A stretch of DNA of 22,175 bases from a virus: the IMG/VR virus record IMGVR_UViG_3300025645_000513, positions 1 through 22,175 of that record, one strand, 5' to 3'. The position numbers and the translations under genes are program-made. The notes below the pieces were generated by a model that saw only the letters and a program-made list of their open reading frames with translations, did not search any database and was not told the origin of the DNA. Of the stretch, positions 2,755-20,810 are shown in pieces; positions within the stretch are counted from its first letter, which is position 1, and each line of letters starts with the position of its first letter.

Positions 2755-5700
2755 TTATTCCCACGGATACTTGGCGTCTTCCACATTAGTCAGAAGGTCT
2801 GTTCCCGCTTTTACGGGCTCGCCCTTCATCATTCTTCCCCGTGTTCCTTGGTTATTAATATTACCCAAAGTATCCATAATAGCGTTTTTGGCTTCTTGTC
2901 TAGATAGCCCTTGCTTCGCTAAGTTAAAACCAAATTTGTTGTTGAAGTAATCAAGGTACTCGGACCTAGGATCTGATCCCCCCATCTTTTTATTGAGACC
3001 TTGGTAAACCTCTTTAGCTTGAGCGCCAACAGCACTTAGTGGATTTTGTCCTGCGTCATATGCGAATAGCGCGTGGTTTACAGCGTTGAAGACTTCTTCA
3101 TCGCCTTTAATTCCCGTGTTCTGCCTAGTTCTTTTAGAAGCGTCCTCTGGCAGTAACAGCTCTACTCGGTACTGCTCACCTATCAACCCTGAATCTACCA
3201 TTTGATTTGTAAGGTCTACAGCTTCTTGTGATATGGCTACTTGGCGCTCATCGTCAAAACCAAGAGCTTCCGCTCCTTTTTGGATGGCTTTTTCTATTAG
3301 TCCGCCGCCTGCATACTTGCCTAATTCTTCAAGGTCTGAAGATGCAGACCCTTTAGGTTTTTTTACTTCACCACCTTCGCTAAACCCTTCTCGCAGAAGG
3401 TGACGAATATACTCGTCGGTTAGCTCTTGGCTTGGAAGGCCTTTTCCTTTTACCCCTAAGGCAAGGTCGTAATATCCCGGCCCTTTACGGCTAGGGTTGT
3501 CCGCCTTAAATTGTCTGTGCCAATCAGGGAGATACACCTCGGTAGGCGTAGGCTGCATACTAACACCTAAATCCCCTCCTCCTAGCAGAGTCGGGAAACC
3601 GGGATGAAGGTCCGGCCTATAGTCTGCAGTGCCATCCAAACTAAACAGTCGAGGTCCTGCCGCAAAAGTTGGCGCGTCACCCCCGTGTATTGGGTGAAGA
3701 AGGGCTTTTTCTGTTTCCTTAATTAGTATTTCTGTGGGTTTAAAGATTACGCCTTTCCCGCTTTTTTCTCCACCTAACGAAATTCCGCCTTTGCTTGGTG
3801 GAAGACCTTGGCCCATCATTATGTCCGCAAGTGCTGCTCTTTTTTCAAAGGTGTCTGCTTGGGCCCATATTTTAGGGTCTCGGATGTCCGCCCCTTCGCC
3901 AAAAGTAACCGCGAGGTTTATGTTGATCTTTTCTGCCAACTCAGGAGATAAATTTCCTGCCTTCATTGAAGCAACAAACCCTTTTTTTAATTTATCAAAA
4001 ACAATAGGGTTAGTCTTAAGCTGTGTTGCAGAACCAAGCATGGTCGTCCATGCTGTTTCTGGAGAAGTAAGGTTGGTTAAACGGGAAGCTGTTCCTGAAT
4101 CCATTACTCCCCATACCTTACCTGCGTAATTAGGGTCGGCTTCGCTTATTGCAGAGAAGGCTGCGCCCCCAATATTTCCGCCACCTACTCTGGTTCGGTC
4201 AGCTTGCGTGGTAGAAGTCCTTTTAAAACCCTGTTCCATTAACTGGCCGAGTGCTTCAGACGCTTTTACTGTAGGCTGAGACTCAATAAGTTTTTGTGCC
4301 TTTCTGCCTGCCGCCGCACGATCAGCAGCTTTAAGAGCCGTTGTTACAGCAGCTTTCTTAGTACCCCTTGCTCCCATGCCTAACAGAGGAGATGCACCGG
4401 CCACGGACATCAGGACCACCTGCTCGTACATCTCGGCAAGATCAGTATCCCCCGCAGCACGTGCTTCATTGGCAAGGTCAGAATATTTCTCTACGTCCAT
4501 GCCTGAACGTATCTCACCCGTTACCGGAGCCATGTCCAACGCATAGCCCACAGGATCATCCGCCGCTCCGGCTTGCATTGTCTTGCCTACGCCATAAATA
4601 TCCGCGAGCAATTTTGCAGAGGGGCTCTGACTTTGCACGACTTCCTTTCCGTACTCATAAACACTAGAAGGGATTCGTTTTGCTCCACTGAGCATGTTTT
4701 CAAGAATACTGCGGCTTTCGGTCTGTACTTGATCCGTGGGCCGTGGTTCTTGAGTATCCATCGCCATTAACTGGGCAGTAAGCTCGTCAGCCGTCATCGA
4801 GTCCGCAGGACCATTGTCCGCGAACCCTTCAGGCTTTTTTACAGGGCCACCCTCCGCGAACACCGGAACAATTCTAGCGCCACCGGCAGTGCCGAGGTCT
4901 CTGGCGAGAAGCTCTGTGTTGTAGCCTTGGGTCGTGAAGTTAGATTGACGACTCTCTTCGTCGCCCTCAGTTAATCCTGTAAACCCGCTCGTTAGGCCAT
5001 AGGGGACCTGTTCGGTATCCGCCGTGCCTTCTTCGCGTTCGGCCTCCCTTCGCATTGAGTCCTGCTGACGCATTAACGCAAAAAGCTGTGAGCGAGACAG
5101 CCCGCCACCGTAACTTCCGGTCCTATTCAAAAGGTCTGCGTATCTGTCGTAGTTGGCGCCGGACAATTGACGGAGGTCCTGAGCCGCGCGGCCTTGGGTG
5201 TAACGATTAAGCGTGCCGGTGTCCATGAGCGAACGCGGTCGGCTCGTGACAGACGGGGGAGTGAAACTGAACCCTGATCCGGTGGCCGAGAGCAACTTAG
5301 CAGCAGGCGTGTAGTCAAAGCCTGCGAGGTTGCCATACTGATCAAGGACCTCGGTCCGTGGTGGGCTGTCCCTGAACTCACGGTCGAGGGCTTCCTCGCC
5401 GGGGGCATAAATATCAGGCTGCGGTGCAATCGGCTGATAGACCGTAGGCGGAACGTACTCGGGCTGCGTTTGGGGAAAGGGGTCAGGAACTGGGTCAACA
5501 TTAATTGGTGCGTCCGGCTCCTTCGCAGCAGGCGTGTTGAACAAGATGCTAGGATCAACGCCCGCCGCTAACATGTCTTGGAAGGTTACGCCTTGCTGTG
5601 TCGCAATGGCCTGCGCTTCACGGCGCTCTGCCTCGTCTATTACGCCGTCGGCCATCAATCCAGACACGTAGTTCTGCGCGCCGCTTCTAATCTGCTCCAT

Positions 5701-8202: not shown

Positions 8203-8646
8203 TCACAGCGGCTCTTTGGGCCATATACGGGCGCTTATTGCTATCTCCCTGCCTAATTCGTCCCAGTCCACTGCATTTAACGCCCACTGGGCCACCGGGA
8301 GCGTGTCTACGCCCCTCTCGTGTAGCTCCTGAGCCTGTGTGCCGTGGTACAGCAGCAGGCGTGTCTCAGAGGCTTTGGTCGTCCCCTTCGGGTGCCACTG
8401 CACCAGTATGTAGGTCGGCATCCCCATCGATCCGTGCTTCAGCGCAAAGGCTATCTGGTGAGGGCTCAGGCGTACTTTCTTCCCGGTCTTCACTACCTTG
8501 AGCTCCAACATCGAGTAGGTCGGCGGCGTCGCTATCAGGCAGTCCGGTATCCCGAGGTTCACCCTGTTTTCTAATGGCACTACCAAAGCGCCGGATAGTT
8601 TCTTCTTTACGTTCCTGTATAGCGCTGACTCTGGACCGCTCGACAT
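8203..8646 (-). CDS. VRR-NUC family PD-(D/E)xK nuclease
   Basis: A 147-aa nuclease. The core is GIPDCLI (D35), LELKVVK (E48, K50) and SPHQIAF (Q64), the PD-(D/E)xK pattern of VRR-NUC proteins, which cut branched or flap DNA structures and are common as stand-alone phage genes next to terminases. It may resolve or trim replicated DNA before packaging; this is inference. I chose ATG 8646 because GAGGAG lies 7 nt upstream; a longer reading from 8688 adds 14 Arg-rich residues with no support. The first 281 nt overlap the terminase small subunit reading frame. Downstream lies the 490-nt palindrome-rich non-coding interval. Confidence 0.8.
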   Translation of the reverse strand: MSSGPESALYRNVKKKLSGALVVPLENRVNLGIPDCLIATPPTYSMLELKVVKTGKKVRLSPHQIAFALKHGSMGMPTYILVQWHPKGTTKASETRLLLYHGTQAQELHERGVDTLPVAQWALNAVDWDELGREIAISARIWPKEPL

Positions 8647-9313
8647 CGCGCATCTCCTCGATGATTGTCTTGGCCGAGGGCGTCTCATCCACCTCTTCGG
8701 GCTCGATCTCTTCAGCCTTGATCTCTTCGGGCTCGATGTCGATCAGGGTCTGCGGTGGCGCACCGTACAACGCCTTGATCTCTTCAAGCTTACGCCTGAC
8801 TTCGTCCTTACTCATCGAGTCGATAGTGCCTACACGGATTTCCTTACGGTCTACATAGATCGTGCCGAGCGCTTGGCCGCGCCGGTATTCAGCAGAGACT
8901 GCCGCACCGAAGTTGCCTGCCTCGAGGGCTTGGTCGCGGATATGCTGCAGGTCTCGCATGTGTCTGTCGAAGTTAGTGCCGTATTTCTCTGCAAGCTCGG
9001 CGCGGTATTGTTGGATTGCTGCGACGACGTGGGGTTTCTTTTTTGGATTGGTCAGCTCCGATCCTATCGCGCTTGCCGACTCTTTTGGATAGCCTGCGCG
9101 TATCGCTGCCTCGGTCAAGGTAATGTGGCCGTCGTTCGATATGAGCTCTTGAATGAAAGTCCATTGCTGAGCGCTCACGATATGCTTCTGGTCTTTAAGG
9201 GGCGCTACTGGCTCGTTTAACCGCTGCTCAAGCTTCATTCGAGTACTGGGCCTCAGCGGGGAGGTGTTCAGAATATCTCTGCGATGCTTACCTTCTTTAC
9301 TGCTCTTGCTCAT
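8366..9313 (-). CDS. terS: Terminase small subunit
   Basis: A 315-aa protein that should recognise phage DNA and regulate the large subunit. Residues ~43-110 hold the DNA-binding helical segment: SAQQWTFIQELI, then LTEAAIRAGYPKESASAIGS, then KPHVVAAIQQYRAEL. The segment YVDRKEIRVGTIDSMSKDEV (153-172) is a conserved part of this family as I recall it. An acidic Glu/Pro tract follows (~190-213). From residue ~223 the chain is disordered-looking and is encoded over the VRR-NUC gene in another frame. ATG 9313 is preferred to TTG 9328 because GGAGG lies 5 nt upstream, and it overlaps the previous stop as ATGA. The total length is greater than the usual 150-230 aa because of the overprinted tail. 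Confidence 0.85.
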   Translation of the reverse strand: MSKSSKEGKHRRDILNTSPLRPSTRMKLEQRLNEPVAPLKDQKHIVSAQQWTFIQELISNDGHITLTEAAIRAGYPKESASAIGSELTNPKKKPHVVAAIQQYRAELAEKYGTNFDRHMRDLQHIRDQALEAGNFGAAVSAEYRRGQALGTIYVDRKEIRVGTIDSMSKDEVRRKLEEIKALYGAPPQTLIDIEPEEIKAEEIEPEEVDETPSAKTIIEEMRDVERSRVSAIQERKEETIRRFGSAIRKQGEPRDTGLPDSDAADLLDVGAQGSEDREESTPEPSPDSLCAEARIDGDADLHTGAVAPEGDDQSL

Positions 9314-9555
9314 GCGGTCCTCCGACAAGTCCAGATAGGACCTTCCGATTGCGTAACACTGAAGCGTCGGCCTGCTCCATTGCGGGATTTGTAGAACGTC
9401 GACAAAGCGCTGTTGATACGCTTAGCGTCCTCTTTCGAGCGGACAACGAAGTAATCGCCAAGGACCATCCCCTTAAAGGGGTAACGGGTTTGTTTATGGC
9501 TGCCGTTGCACAGGCGCAGGATGTGCTCCCGTGGGGTAATGTCTGAGAGTGTCAT
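9310..9555 (-). CDS. Small DUF7303-like protein, copy 1
   Basis: An 81-aa protein with YPFKGMVLGDYFVV, then AKRINSALSTFYKSRNG and RRFSVTQSEGPIWTCRR. This is the YPF-x(3-4)-VGDSFxV ... A-x-x-xxR-xGxKFxxRxxxxxxxVWR pattern of a very common small phage family, which I believe is annotated as DUF7303. Its function is unknown. GAGG 6 nt upstream supports ATG 9555. It is the first gene after the control region and its stop overlaps the terS start, so it leads the packaging operon. A second copy of the family is at 15211-15423. The family assignment is from memory and the name could be wrong; the relationship between the two copies is visible directly. Confidence 0.65.
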   Translation of the reverse strand: MTLSDITPREHILRLCNGSHKQTRYPFKGMVLGDYFVVRSKEDAKRINSALSTFYKSRNGAGRRFSVTQSEGPIWTCRRTA

Positions 9556-11329: not shown

Positions 11330-11363
11330 TCACGAATTAAATACTACCGTCAACTACTTTTTT
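11330..11363 (-). promoter_or_regulatory. Promoter of the AGTAGTTGAC family (P1)
   Basis: AAAAAAGTAGTTGAC at 11349-11363 (minus strand) carries a TTGACG -35 box behind an A-tract. The -10 is weak: the best candidate is GACGAT about 18 nt downstream. The shared upstream sequence is the main evidence. Confidence 0.5.
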
Positions 11364-11882: not shown

Positions 11883-11925
11883 AGAATAATCGAAGTCAGG
11901 GTCACAGTCAACTACTTTTTACTAC
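11883..11925 (-). promoter_or_regulatory. Promoter of the AGTAGTTGAC family (P2)
   Basis: On the minus strand AAAAAGTAGTTGACT holds the -35 TTGACT (11906-11911), then a 17-nt spacer and the -10 TATTCT (11883-11888). The A-rich upstream block could be an UP element. It is the clearest promoter of this family. Confidence 0.65.
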
Positions 11926-12681: not shown

Positions 12682-12725
12682 GTCTTTCTCCTGTATCCGG
12701 TCAGGGCCACTCCCTGACAACAACT
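12682..12725 (-). promoter_or_regulatory. Leader stem-loop plus ribosome site (leader 5)
   Basis: GTCAGGG-AGTGG-CCCTGAC (12700-12718, minus strand) is a 7-bp stem with loop AGTGG, followed by CGGATACAGGAGA and the ATG at 12681. Confidence 0.7.
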
Positions 12726-12818: not shown

Positions 12819-12873
12819 GGACAAAATTATCTGCACTTTTTTTCGTCCCCGGACAAAATTATCTGCACTTTTT
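12819..12873. repeat. Exact 23-nt direct repeat after the lysin gene
   Basis: A 23-nt unit beginning GGACAAAATTATCTGCAC occurs at 12819-12841 and again at 12851-12873, 32 nt apart, just downstream of the cell wall hydrolase stop. There is no gene between them. On the minus strand the junction TTTTGTCC-GG-GGACGAAAA can pair, but no T-run follows. The role is unknown. Confidence 0.7.
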
Positions 12874-12876
12874 GCG

Positions 12877-13311
12877 CTACTTCCACCCGATGTAAGGTCC
12901 GTGGTCCTCGGCGCCTGCACCCTCCCTGTAGAACAGGTGGTCGCCAATAACGGCCGTAGGACGCATTCTAAGGGCCCAGTCGGGCCGAACGTAGTAGGCA
13001 TGATAATGCGTAGCGTAACCCGTAATGTTGCTCACAGCGCCGCTGAGGACGCCTGAGGCCACCCACCGCGCTACGGTGTAGGCGCGCTCGTCTTGAGGTT
13101 TATCGGACTGGCCGTCGCAGTAGAACGAGAAGGCGCAGCGGTTGCGGACCTCGCCGCCGTCGGTAACGACGCCGCAGACGGTGTCAGGGAAGCGTGAGTC
13201 GTAGACTCTCTCGAGGACGACCTGCGCGACAGCGATCTGCCCCTGCAAGTCTTGGTTGCGCGCTTCGTGATAAATCGTAAGTGCGAGGCAGGCCAGTGCG
13301 GAGGTAAACAT
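12877..13311 (-). CDS. SleB-family cell wall hydrolase (endolysin)
   Basis: A 144-aa peptidoglycan hydrolase. The start LTIYHEARNQDLQGQIAVAQ places the catalytic Glu at residue 16, followed by VVLERV, RCAFSFYCDGQSDKP (58-72), ATHYHAYYVRPDW (100-112) and GDHLFYR (123-129), the full set of Hydrolase_2/SleB motifs. The family cleaves the glycan strand as a lytic transglycosylase or glucosaminidase. No signal peptide or membrane segment is present, so a holin, not identified here, would be needed for release. ATG 13311 overlaps the previous stop (TGATG), with GGAG 8 nt upstream. It is notable that lysis lies among the small early/middle genes rather than with the virion genes. A CCGTGGTCC motif (12899) lies within its last codons. 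Confidence 0.85.
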   Translation of the reverse strand: MFTSALACLALTIYHEARNQDLQGQIAVAQVVLERVYDSRFPDTVCGVVTDGGEVRNRCAFSFYCDGQSDKPQDERAYTVARWVASGVLSGAVSNITGYATHYHAYYVRPDWALRMRPTAVIGDHLFYREGAGAEDHGPYIGWK

Positions 13312-13469
13312 CAGCGGTGCTCCATGGTGAGATTGATTTCGTCGATGAGCTGCTCAGCAACTATTACCGCTTCACGTGCCAGTTGATCGGTAGAACGCTT
13401 CGATCTGCCGAGCAGCGCGTGCATCATTACCGTCGAGACTAAAGCTAGGATTGCTTTTTCTTCGTCCAT
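13311..13469 (-). CDS. Unknown 52-aa protein
   Basis: Found by translating the minus strand: MDEEKAILALVSTVMMHALL followed by a charged helix REAVIVAEQLIDEINLTMEH. The first 20 residues are hydrophobic apart from the charged start, but the stretch is short for a membrane segment; a tiny holin-like protein is conceivable because the lysin follows with a TGATG overlap, yet this is weak. ATG 13469 has GGAG 7 nt upstream. Its first 98 nt overlap the end of the HTH gene at 13372 in another frame; either both are real or the HTH protein's tail is incidental. Confidence 0.5.
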   Translation of the reverse strand: MDEEKAILALVSTVMMHALLGRSKRSTDQLAREAVIVAEQLIDEINLTMEHR

Positions 13470-13617
13470 TTATTTTCTCCAGATAACCCGGTCTATTAAA
13501 CCAGTCGTTCAAGGTGTGTGTTGACGGCCCGAGCTTGCGGCTGATTAATTTTTTAGGAATGCCTTCGTCACGAAGTCGGAAGGCCTCCTGTACTACTTCC
13601 CACGGCCAAGCTTTCAT
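13372..13617 (-). CDS. Small helix-turn-helix protein
   Basis: An 81-aa protein beginning MKAWPWEVVQEAFRLRDEGI, then PKKLISRKLGPSTHTLNDWF and NRPGYLEKINGRRKS. This is a helix-turn-helix of the resolvase/homeodomain-like type (residues ~6-48). The same module, with AFR-LR-G, IS, G, T-L, WF-R and LEK at matching positions, ends the sigma-like gene directly upstream, so the pair looks like a duplication. ATG 13617 overlaps the previous stop as ATGA, giving translational coupling. The last ~32 residues overlap the 52-aa gene and look disordered. It probably binds DNA, perhaps together with its neighbour (inference). Confidence 0.65.
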   Translation of the reverse strand: MKAWPWEVVQEAFRLRDEGIPKKLISRKLGPSTHTLNDWFNRPGYLEKINGRRKSNPSFSLDGNDARAARQIEAFYRSTGT

Positions 13618-14078
13618 TTCTCCAAATCCTCGTTTCGATAGAACCATGTTTCTAATTCTTTGGTAGGCACGCCAGTCATGAAGCTGATCTGATCTATGCG
13701 CCACCCGGCTCGTAAATACCTAAAGGCATCGTCGAGCTCAACGAGCATTGACTGACGTTCTTTTTCTTTCCTTCTTTGTAACCTCTGTTTTTTTTCAATG
13801 TCAAAAGCATAGCCTAACTGTAGTTCTTTGCTTTGCTTAAGTTTACGAAGAGCTTCACGTTCTATTTGTCTTATTCTTTCTCGACTCAAGCCGAACAGGT
13901 CCGCTACTTTCTGCAGGCTTTTAGGGTTTTCTCCATCTAACCCGTAGCGCAAAATAATTATTTTTTTATGCCTGTCGGTTAGTGTTCCTTTTTCTAGCGC
14001 GGTAGATAGTAAAACAGGGAACTGCTCTTTACTCAGCAGTTCTAATGGGTCTGTAATTGCTGCTGTTTTATAGTCCAT
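13614..14078 (-). CDS. Sigma-70 region 4 protein with an extra C-terminal HTH
   Basis: A 154-aa protein. Residues ~34-82 (LTDRHKKIIILRYGLDGENP, then LQKVADLFGLSRERIRQIER, then EALRKLKQ) are a textbook sigma-70 region 4, including the SRERIRQIE-x-x-ALRKL helix that contacts the -35 box and RNA polymerase beta flap. Regions 1-3 are absent. A Lys/Arg-rich helix (~95-110) leads to a second HTH (113-154, DDAFRYLRAGWRIDQISFMT), homologous to the next gene. It could steer or block host RNA polymerase at phage promoters. ATG 14078 overlaps the upstream stop (TGATG); a GTG at 14081 is also possible. Alternative: a region-4-type DNA-binding regulator that does not bind polymerase. Confidence 0.8.
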   Translation of the reverse strand: MDYKTAAITDPLELLSKEQFPVLLSTALEKGTLTDRHKKIIILRYGLDGENPKSLQKVADLFGLSRERIRQIEREALRKLKQSKELQLGYAFDIEKKQRLQRRKEKERQSMLVELDDAFRYLRAGWRIDQISFMTGVPTKELETWFYRNEDLEK

Positions 14079-14485
14079 CACAATAACCGCTTGTCTTTGA
14101 GTATCTGAAAGTTAGCCTTGTGCTGCGCTTGGATTTCTTTTTTGTTTTGCCCAGTGTAAGGCACCGCCAAATGCTCGGTGACTAGCGCAGCGTTTATCGA
14201 GGTGTCGTCGGTCAGGTAGATCGTTCCGAGGTACCGGCCGAACTTTCCTTTTTCTTTTGTCTGGAGGCGATAGGTTCCTCCGACGTGGAGCGCGTCCTCG
14301 ACAAACTCCTTCGCCAAGAGTCCGGCAGCTTTTTCCTCTGCATCTCGTGTGCGGCACTCTGGAGTATCAATACCGTACAAACGAATGCGCTCACCACGAC
14401 GCCAAGTATCAAAGCCAAGATCAATATCAACATCGACAGTATCTCCATCGACAACACGGACAATTTTGCACTGGTAGTCATACAT
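14078..14485 (-). CDS. Staphylococcal nuclease-like (SNase) nuclease
   Basis: A 135-aa single-domain protein of the thermonuclease fold. The N-terminal CKIVRVVDGDTVDVDIDLGF is the Ca-binding strand; GERIRLYGIDTPECR gives the catalytic Arg (R35) and Asp (D40); EEKAAG follows with the general-base Glu candidate (E50 or E51); KGKFGRYLGTIYL gives the second Arg (R84). All key positions appear present, so it should be active as a calcium-dependent endonuclease. No signal peptide is visible, so it would act inside the cell, perhaps on host DNA. ATG 14485 has a modest AGG close by. Its stop overlaps the sigma-like gene start. Confidence 0.85.
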   Translation of the reverse strand: MYDYQCKIVRVVDGDTVDVDIDLGFDTWRRGERIRLYGIDTPECRTRDAEEKAAGLLAKEFVEDALHVGGTYRLQTKEKGKFGRYLGTIYLTDDTSINAALVTEHLAVPYTGQNKKEIQAQHKANFQILKDKRLL

Positions 14486-14500
14486 CCTGTTTTCCCTAAA

Positions 14501-14539
14501 TTAATATGCTAGATGCTGCAATTCATCTTTAGGTATCAT
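14501..14539 (-). CDS. Possible 12-aa mini-ORF before the SNase gene
   Basis: MIPKDELQHLAY starts at ATG 14539, which follows a strong AGGAG ribosome site and overlaps the stop of the gene upstream as ATGA, then stops at 14501, 15 nt before the SNase start. It may be a leader peptide that couples translation, a gene remnant, or chance. Confidence 0.3.
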   Translation of the reverse strand: MIPKDELQHLAY

Positions 14540-14793
14540 GCGTCTTCTCCTTTCTTGTGAGCAGGGCGATGCGCCCCGATATCTCGGTTGGTTGGATCGG
14601 TTAATGAGTCTGGGCGCATGAGGCGATCAAACTTTCTCTTGGGGGCATCCGGGTCAGCTTCACTAAAAGCGCGTGGCGGACAAACGGTTATCACTCCGCC
14701 GTTGGCTTTGTATTCCTGTACCTGACGTTCTAATTCTGCACGTAAGCGAGCGCGCTCAGGTAAAGTAAGAACATTAATTCGAGTCGTGGTCAT
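14536..14793 (-). CDS. Unknown 85-aa protein
   Basis: Not firmly recognised. It begins MTTTRINVLTLPERARLRAE, continues with a helix ending QVQEYKANGGVITVCPPRAF, and has a polar Pro/Asp-rich tail. The helix followed by GG-V-I-x-V-x-PP resembles small phage and bacterial proteins that share a FLxxGGxIxxxP pattern, some of which contact RNA polymerase, but this is only a pattern likeness. The ATG overlaps the previous stop as ATGA. It belongs to a run of five overlapping genes (15423-14501) expressed together. Confidence 0.65.
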   Translation of the reverse strand: MTTTRINVLTLPERARLRAELERQVQEYKANGGVITVCPPRAFSEADPDAPKRKFDRLMRPDSLTDPTNRDIGAHRPAHKKGEDA

Positions 14794-16118: not shown

Positions 16119-16160
16119 ATACTAGCACACTGATCAGGCAGCGCAACTACTTTTTTCTAC
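16119..16160 (-). promoter_or_regulatory. Promoter of the AGTAGTTG family (P4)
   Basis: On the minus strand AAAAAAGTAGTTGCGC holds the -35 TTGCGC (16141-16146), a 16-nt spacer and TAGTAT (16119-16124) preceded by TG one base upstream, an extended -10. The A-rich block upstream is shared with P1-P3. Confidence 0.6.
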
Positions 16161-19317: not shown

Positions 19318-20810
19318 AATCTAAATCCTCTCTCTTCATTCTTGGGCAATACAATGTGCAGCGATTGCCTTGTGCGCGTGACGCCCACATAGAGCAATCG
19401 ATTAATGTCATCGGCGTTCTTCGCATAATCTTTTGCAAACTTAGGGCTCAGGTCCGTGAGCAATAAAACATTGTCCGCCTCTCCGCCCTTTGCTCCGTGG
19501 ATCGTAGACAGTTGTATCGCAGGCTTCACGCCTAACTTCGCACCACGCCTCAGCACAGCAATCAGGTAGTCGCGTTTGTCTTCGCCTATCTTGGTCAAGG
19601 CTTCGTGCCAGATGGCGTCGGTCAGTAACCCTTGGTTAGCTTTGAGCTCGGCCATGTCATACATAGCCTCGGGGTCCGCATGCCTTAGCGATTTAAACCC
19701 GCGCTTTATCGAGGAAGCAGGCAAGTGCTTATAGATTTGCCGCAGCACGTCATAGCCGACCGATTGGCCTTTGCGTAACCGCTCCCAACCAATGACAGAG
19801 GTCACCACCGAATCGGCAATGCTCCGTTGTCCATTGCGCTCGAAAAGTAGGCCTTGGCTTTTGATCCAGTTGTGCAGCTCGTTGAGCATGTAGTTCGTGG
19901 AGGCCATGATTAACCATTCGCCCTTGCTGATATCCACCTGCTCGAATTGGTTGTAATAATTTATCTCGCCTTGCTCCTGTCGTGGCGCCCAGATTTTCTC
20001 CTGCCTGTTCTGAATTCGCTTCACGATAGAGTTTGCAAGGAAGTGGACCTTAGCCGGTACGCGATAGGACTGCTCGAGAATCTTTACCTCACCCTCACAG
20101 GACAGGAAGCTTTCCACGTCAGCACCGGACCACGTGTACACCGCTTGGTCATCATCTCCTGCGACAAACGTGCGGTCTGCTTTCTCTGCCAATGCCATGA
20201 CGAGTTTCCACTGCAAGCGTGAGAGGTCTTGTGCCTCGTCGACAATCAGCACTTCAAGTGCAGGCAGTCGTTCCTGCTGTTCGATCAGTCTCTCGAGCAA
20301 GTCCGTAAAATCCATCAGCATGTGCGCCGCCTTAAACTTACGGTAGGCACGCTCGACGAACTCAAAGTAGAACCATTCGATTTCCATGTTGCTGCGGTTG
20401 TAATGTGTTCGCAGGTCTATGCCTCGAATGCGTGCGATGTTTATCTCGTTCAGGATTGCGTTGTCTGCGCGCACGATATAGTCGTCGCCCTCTAGCGAGG
20501 TTGACACCTCGAGGCCTGTTTCCTTTGCGAACGTCGCGTAATCCTCTGCAGACATCAGGTCCTTGGCCCCTGCTCCGAGGCAGTGATAGGCAAGACTATG
20601 TAGCGTGCGGAACCACGGAAAGTCCGTCTCGGCGTTCAGGCTAGGGAACTTCTGAATCGCTCGATCACGAGCCTCACCTGCTGCCTTGCGAGTAAACGAG
20701 AAGTAACCTATCTGGCTCGATAGCGTATTGTCGGCGAGCTCCTTCTCAACGACGTTAAGAAGGAACGTGGTTTTCCCTGAACCCGGCGGGCCAAACACCT
20801 TAGTCATCAT
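19314..20810 (-). CDS. UvrD/Rep-like SF1 DNA helicase
   Basis: A 498-aa helicase. Walker A GPPGSGKTT is at 7-15, motif Ia near GYFSFTRKAA (35-44), motif II LIVDEAQDLS (188-197), motif III GDDDQAVYTWSGAD (218-231), motif IV LEQSYRVP (245-252), motif V STIHGAKGGEADNV (435-448) and motif VI RLLYVGVTRTR (471-481). All seven SF1A motifs are present, so it should unwind DNA 3'-5'. It is shorter than UvrD (~720 aa) and lacks large 1B/2B insertions. It begins at ATG 20810, overlapping the primase stop (TAATG). It replaces the DnaB-like helicase found in many phages and probably works directly with the primase and PolA at the fork. Confidence 0.92.
   Translation of the reverse strand: MMTKVFGPPGSGKTTFLLNVVEKELADNTLSSQIGYFSFTRKAAGEARDRAIQKFPSLNAETDFPWFRTLHSLAYHCLGAGAKDLMSAEDYATFAKETGLEVSTSLEGDDYIVRADNAILNEINIARIRGIDLRTHYNRSNMEIEWFYFEFVERAYRKFKAAHMLMDFTDLLERLIEQQERLPALEVLIVDEAQDLSRLQWKLVMALAEKADRTFVAGDDDQAVYTWSGADVESFLSCEGEVKILEQSYRVPAKVHFLANSIVKRIQNRQEKIWAPRQEQGEINYYNQFEQVDISKGEWLIMASTNYMLNELHNWIKSQGLLFERNGQRSIADSVVTSVIGWERLRKGQSVGYDVLRQIYKHLPASSIKRGFKSLRHADPEAMYDMAELKANQGLLTDAIWHEALTKIGEDKRDYLIAVLRRGAKLGVKPAIQLSTIHGAKGGEADNVLLLTDLSPKFAKDYAKNADDINRLLYVGVTRTRQSLHIVLPKNEERGFRF

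Follow-up and report, generated by a model that had tools for sequence, protein, structure and literature searches.

A region-4-only sigma protein with a second helix-turn-helix in an accessory slot of a phage genome

Introduction

Minimal sigma factors consisting only of a helix-turn-helix (HTH) have been described in group 2 jumbo phages. They have a single region-4-type HTH without region 2, are encoded by the phage and are thought to bind both the promoter and the beta flap of the host RNA polymerase (PMC7824862). Another small phage protein placed at the beta flap site of sigma region 4 is gp33, the late co-activator of T4, which is structurally unrelated to region 4, does not bind DNA alone and works together with the region-2 protein gp55 and the clamp gp45 (PMC7892883).

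Here we analyse a stretch of viral DNA, the window (IMG/VR virus record IMGVR_UViG_3300025645_000513, 22,175 bases), which encodes a 154-aa protein containing region 4 of sigma-70 and ending in a second HTH. As a phage-encoded region-4-type HTH without region 2 it falls, by description, among the HTH-only minimal sigmas. It differs from the jumbo-phage proteins in its linker and second HTH, and its phage is related to HTVC023P-type phages and DSL-LC04 and is not a jumbo phage. A place at the beta flap is expected for this protein as for gp33; unlike gp33, its fold is that of sigma region 4 by sequence, and no region-2 partner was found in the fragments searched. An earlier note on this DNA had proposed that the layout matched no described system; the jumbo-phage proteins, and the short region-4 proteins described below, speak against this. 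In its architecture the protein goes modestly beyond the minimal sigma factors already known from phages.

Results

The locus and its relatives

The terminase and DNA polymerase of the window are closest to those of phage DSL-LC04 (77% and 71%), followed by 023Pt_psg01 and the Pelagibacter phages HTVC023P and HTVC027P. The genomes of these related phages measure 57-62 kb and the window is therefore a genome fragment, as the sigma-bearing records are fragments of ~60 kb genomes. The predicted host of DSL-LC04 is Pseudomonas (PMC10611076). For comparison we used contigs and genomes of phages related to the window (L002-L004 and L009-L016, L016 being DSL-LC04).

The sigma gene lies on the minus strand at 13614-14078, with its ATG at 14078, and overlaps the following HTH gene (13372-13617, minus strand, an 81-aa ORF with the HTH in its first 48 aa) by 4 nt through an ATGA at 13614-13617. 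Here the coordinates, lengths, frame and coupling given in the earlier note all hold on the sequence. The two genes sit in a cassette slot bounded upstream by a thermonuclease (SNase) homologue (14078-14485, minus strand, Pfam SNase 1.1e-12) and downstream by a conserved 52-aa gene (13311-13469, minus strand) present in the window, L003, L004, L010 and L015. The last part of the HTH gene is also covered by the 52-aa gene, read in another frame. Elsewhere in the window, a 161-aa ORF (PHROG 'DNA helicase') and the 320-aa ORF of the small terminase, at 8203-8688 and 8366-9328 (minus strand), overlap by ~320 nt in different frames of the same strand, with a similar overlap in L003, and a perfect 23-bp direct repeat, GGACAAAATTATCTGCACTTTTT, occurs at 12819-12873 with its copies 32 bp apart.

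Region 4 is present and region 2 is absent

Residues 31-84 of the 154-aa protein (13827-13988, minus strand) form a sigma-70 region 4 with an intact recognition helix, SRERIRQIE. Pfam Sigma70_r4 (PF04545) matches residues 32-82 at 1.3e-16, with 60.3 bits against a cut-off of 24.1, and no other Pfam match of weight was found in the protein. A search of PDB sequences returned domain 4 of the primary sigma factors sigma-A/RpoD (best 3.9e-12), and identity to Salmonella RpoD is 24/60 (40%), with a nearly identical -35 recognition helix in which R66, E67 and Q71 are invariant in all three alleles. The NCBIfam RpoD and RpoS profiles align from residues 7-9 onwards (TIGR02393: residues 7-85), so the short stretch preceding region 4 is also retained. 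PHROG 36 'transcriptional regulator' matches region 4 as well (1.4e-5). On this sequence evidence the identity of the domain as sigma-70 region 4 is beyond doubt.

Compared with RpoD/SigA, the protein lacks regions 1-3 and has an added C-terminal HTH. Region 2, which a complete sigma-70 family factor has for the clamp and the -10 element, was found neither in the 154-aa protein by Pfam nor in the records searched, with positive controls that worked. The description of the protein as region 4 only, ending in a second HTH, is thus borne out.

This second HTH spans residues 111-154 (13617-13748, minus strand). AlphaFold2 (AF2) models the full-length chain poorly (pLDDT 62.7, pTM 0.30), placing helices, at low confidence, at 66-123, 128-135 and 139-152; Foldseek recovered sigma region 4 only weakly from it, owing to the poor model. 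When the window is compared with L004, the linker has a dN/dS of about 0.28, higher than the values of about 0.12 for region 4 and about 0.17 for the C-terminal HTH; all come from small numbers, and the HTH value argues that this is a maintained domain. Searched alone, the C-terminal HTH had no match among the Pfam and PHROG families. When the whole protein, its alignment or the C-terminal part was used to scan viral contigs, the same three records only were returned; bacterial genome contigs gave no relatives and the best match in the phage collection was no better than E = 5. By these searches the particular C-terminal domain is found in no other group of those scanned.

Short region-4 proteins are not rare among viral contigs. 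A scan for the region 4.2 signature found at least 78 proteins; among the 78 matches listed, 40 looked full-length, another 19 ran off a contig end and 19 were short, so that 19 of the 59 not cut at their start are short, some with extra domains. Four such proteins (L037, L072, L078 and L113) likewise have a region 4 and lack region 2; several are extended at one end, and the C-terminal domain of the 154-aa protein is missing from all four. In L113 (IMGVR_UViG_3300032030_000195, minus strand) region 4 (4.2e-13) shares one ORF with the C-terminal domain of RNA polymerase alpha (1.9e-16), and L037 has on its reverse strand a 123-aa ORF with region 4 only and an HTH-like extra N-terminal segment. 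The region-4 matches that we opened in the phage collection proved to be sigma factors of full length or truncated by a contig end, most of them bacterial-looking, and none was a minimal sigma. We found nothing specific in the literature on region-4-only phage proteins or on fusions of sigma region 4 to the alpha C-terminal domain.

The two HTHs are not recent copies

Residues 49-81 of the HTH gene, its last 33, overlap the 52-aa gene out of frame, so the real stand-alone unit is ~48 aa. Nine viral contigs carry these first 48 residues almost unchanged; measured against the window, dN is 0.009-0.024 and dS 0.07-0.21. Judged by substitution patterns, both the sigma gene and the stand-alone HTH gene are under purifying selection. 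AF2 models the stand-alone protein as a compact HTH (pLDDT 87-89 at residues 11-40). Its Foldseek neighbours are the HTHs of a serine recombinase (prob 0.82, E 3.3), Tc3 and SIRV1 ORF55, all weak and none significant, and the HTH_23 profile (homeodomain-like, resolvase/transposase type) scores 14.9 bits against a cut-off of 24.6. We read the gene as encoding a short HTH, possibly of a homeodomain/resolvase-like kind.

The stand-alone HTH and the sigma C-terminus had been aligned before and read as the same HTH, arisen by duplication and fusion. The alignment itself is correct: 15 of 40 positions match in an ungapped alignment (BLASTP E 0.005 when this is the only comparison), and 1 of 5,000 shuffles reaches the score. 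Profile-profile comparison gives E 1.5e-4 with a probability of 51%, the two are reciprocal best matches among 365 ORFs of related phages, and structure prediction of both proteins puts the three helices at the C-terminal HTH in register with those of the neighbouring protein, at low confidence on the sigma side. They are, however, not each other's closest relatives. The stand-alone HTH shares 17 of 34 residues with the HTH of mycobacteriophage Yeet gp124 (score 88), against a score of 46 with the sigma C-terminus and 41 with the other HTH of Yeet. Identity between the two DNA stretches is 57/120, where 54.9 +/- 3.1 is expected from the amino acids alone. The closer unrelated HTH, the lack of excess codon identity and the separate occurrence of the genes in relatives together rule out that the C-terminal HTH was recently duplicated to give the next gene. 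Membership of a common HTH superfamily explains the likeness; a duplication, if there was one, would be very old. Adjacent, nearly identical small winged-HTH-looking proteins, a genuine tandem duplication, do occur in DSL-LC04 (14214-14653, WJZ48095/WJZ48096).

The sigma gene and the HTH gene are separate cassettes

The sigma gene is present in the window, L002 (identical), L003 (91%) and L004 (76%). L004 has no HTH gene, and its sigma gene directly adjoins the 52-aa gene. L009-L015 have the HTH gene and no sigma region 4 in those records; the thermonuclease is joined directly to the HTH gene in L009-L013, and a 94-aa cysteine-containing gene lies between them in L014 and L015. The 94-aa protein in this slot (L015 3720-4004) has zinc-ribbon-like cysteines. 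Gene joints are mostly ATGA or TGATG-type overlaps. Altogether, the HTH gene occurs without the sigma gene in 7 of the 11 related records and the sigma gene without the HTH gene in one. Since each occurs without the other, the genes are independent cassettes and not one system; treating the pair as a unit, as had been proposed, is at odds with this and with the closer kinship of the HTH to an unrelated phage HTH. The sigma gene is an accessory gene, gained or lost between close relatives. Its G+C content of 41.3%, against 51.3% for the window, is consistent with a mobile accessory gene.

The promoter-leader module does not depend on the sigma gene

The sigma and HTH proteins had also been tied to four copies of a promoter motif with an unusual -35 region. 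We counted exact AGTAGTTG three times in the window. After each copy comes a conserved leader, with ATACAGGAG at its end and then a start codon. These promoter-like elements with leaders, AGTAGTTG at 16144-16151 and AGTAGTTGAC at 11907-11916 and 11349-11358, are all on the minus strand, and no link to the sigma gene was found for any of them. The repeated module reads GTAGTAAAAAGTAGTTG(AC), ~17 nt, a -10-like hexamer, often a hairpin-like stretch GTTGTCGG...GGCCGAC, then ATACAGGAG and a start codon. Its sites in the window are 16144, 11909 and 11351, with leaders near 12696, 11608 and 11058, and it is seen also in L004, L010, L012, L015 and L016.

At the -35-like position the elements read TTGAC or TTGC and are for that reason not unusual; the motif lies near the consensus -35, and the SRERIRQIE helix that would read it is nearly identical to that of RpoD. 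The module is found at about a dozen distinct sites in relatives lacking the sigma gene, once in the examined part of DSL-LC04, whose genome has no sigma region 4 anywhere, and in L004, where the stand-alone HTH gene is missing. Because it occurs in relatives lacking each, these promoters need neither the sigma protein nor the HTH protein, and the sigma-less relatives and DSL-LC04 rule out dependence on the former. Action on the host RNA polymerase, the other part of the proposal, is plausible given region 4; its connection to the AGTAGTTG promoters falls away. One DSL-LC04 protein (19405-19662, WJZ48105) is annotated 'RNA polymerase sigma-G factor', and neither region 2 nor region 4 was detected in that genome.

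A SutA-like protein lies nearby

Two genes upstream of the sigma gene, the window encodes an 85-aa protein (14536-14793, minus strand) similar to the RNA polymerase-binding domain of SutA (Pfam SutA-RBD 4e-8, above the cut-off). All ten records covering the region have a homologue (in L004 at 4791-4967), with Pfam scores above the cut-off in five and of 26.6-27.6 bits in the other five; searches of DSL-LC04 and HTVC023P/027P gave none. In its published mode of action, SutA is anchored on the beta protrusion and opens the lobe like a wedge (PMC9300723). Its acidic N-terminal region is apparently missing from the phage proteins, each of which may be a phage-encoded beta-protrusion factor without it. 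Their presence suggests that such phages act on the host RNA polymerase in any case. No single-subunit RNA polymerase was found in the records searched, using a search panel without a positive control. This and the lack of region 2 make the host RNA polymerase the likely enzyme.

Discussion

We tentatively favour the view, at slightly less than an even chance, that the phage uses the 154-aa protein as a minimal sigma acting through the host RNA polymerase. The protein would be a freed sigma-70 domain 4 with a helical linker and a second HTH. Docked on the beta-subunit flap, where it would take the place of host sigma region 4 or compete with it, it would read a near-consensus -35, and its C-terminal HTH would contact DNA just upstream. 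Promoter choice by the host holoenzyme would then shift, by activation or inhibition, and the following gene would supply a separate small DNA-binding protein from the same slot. The intact -35 helix, the missing region 2, purifying selection, mosaic presence and independence from AGTAGTTG and the HTH gene are directly supported. The retained stretch before region 4, the nearby SutA-like protein and the jumbo-phage minimal sigmas also speak for the minimal-sigma reading; the poor AF2 model, phage promoters that do not need the sigma protein, the fragmentary state of the sigma-bearing records and a polymerase search without a positive control count against it.

Proteins can also use the region-4 fold simply to bind DNA, and the ArpU-type phage regulators may be a comparable case. 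The protein might thus be a free-standing two-HTH regulator, a repressor or activator at phage promoters that replaces no sigma on the polymerase. Two HTHs in one chain with a long helix predicted between them (AF2, low confidence), the PHROG 36 match and a region full of small accessory genes fit this idea, which we nevertheless judge somewhat unlikely, as region 4 and the stretch preceding it are closer to primary sigma than kinship of fold would require. Host shut-off, in which region 4 would compete for the flap or the -35 and so lower -35-dependent host transcription, suits an accessory gene in phages whose conserved promoters do not need it, and inhibitors acting by sigma displacement are known from phages (PMC3985653). 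A plain inhibitor would need neither a -35 helix kept intact by purifying selection nor an added HTH, and we regard shut-off as unlikely. Both alternatives are serious rivals of the minimal-sigma reading.

A bolder form of the minimal-sigma reading has host region 4 swapped in an otherwise intact holoenzyme, the hybrid reading the -35 and, through the added HTH, an upstream element, with the SutA-like protein at the beta protrusion as the second part of a polymerase-remodelling kit; we think this quite improbable. It is barely credible that the C-terminal HTH gave rise to the next gene, or the reverse, and that the two work as a pair on the AGTAGTTG promoters: ungapped identity, reciprocal best matching and ATGA-coupled adjacency speak for it, and against it stand the occurrence of each gene alone, the closer Yeet gp124 HTH, the absence of excess codon identity and the promoters of sigma-less relatives.

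Close relatives with and without the sigma gene provide a ready-made comparison. If region-4-only proteins do replace or compete with host region 4, sigma domains would be exchangeable one by one on RNA polymerase, and such proteins would be a simple natural tool for promoter retargeting.
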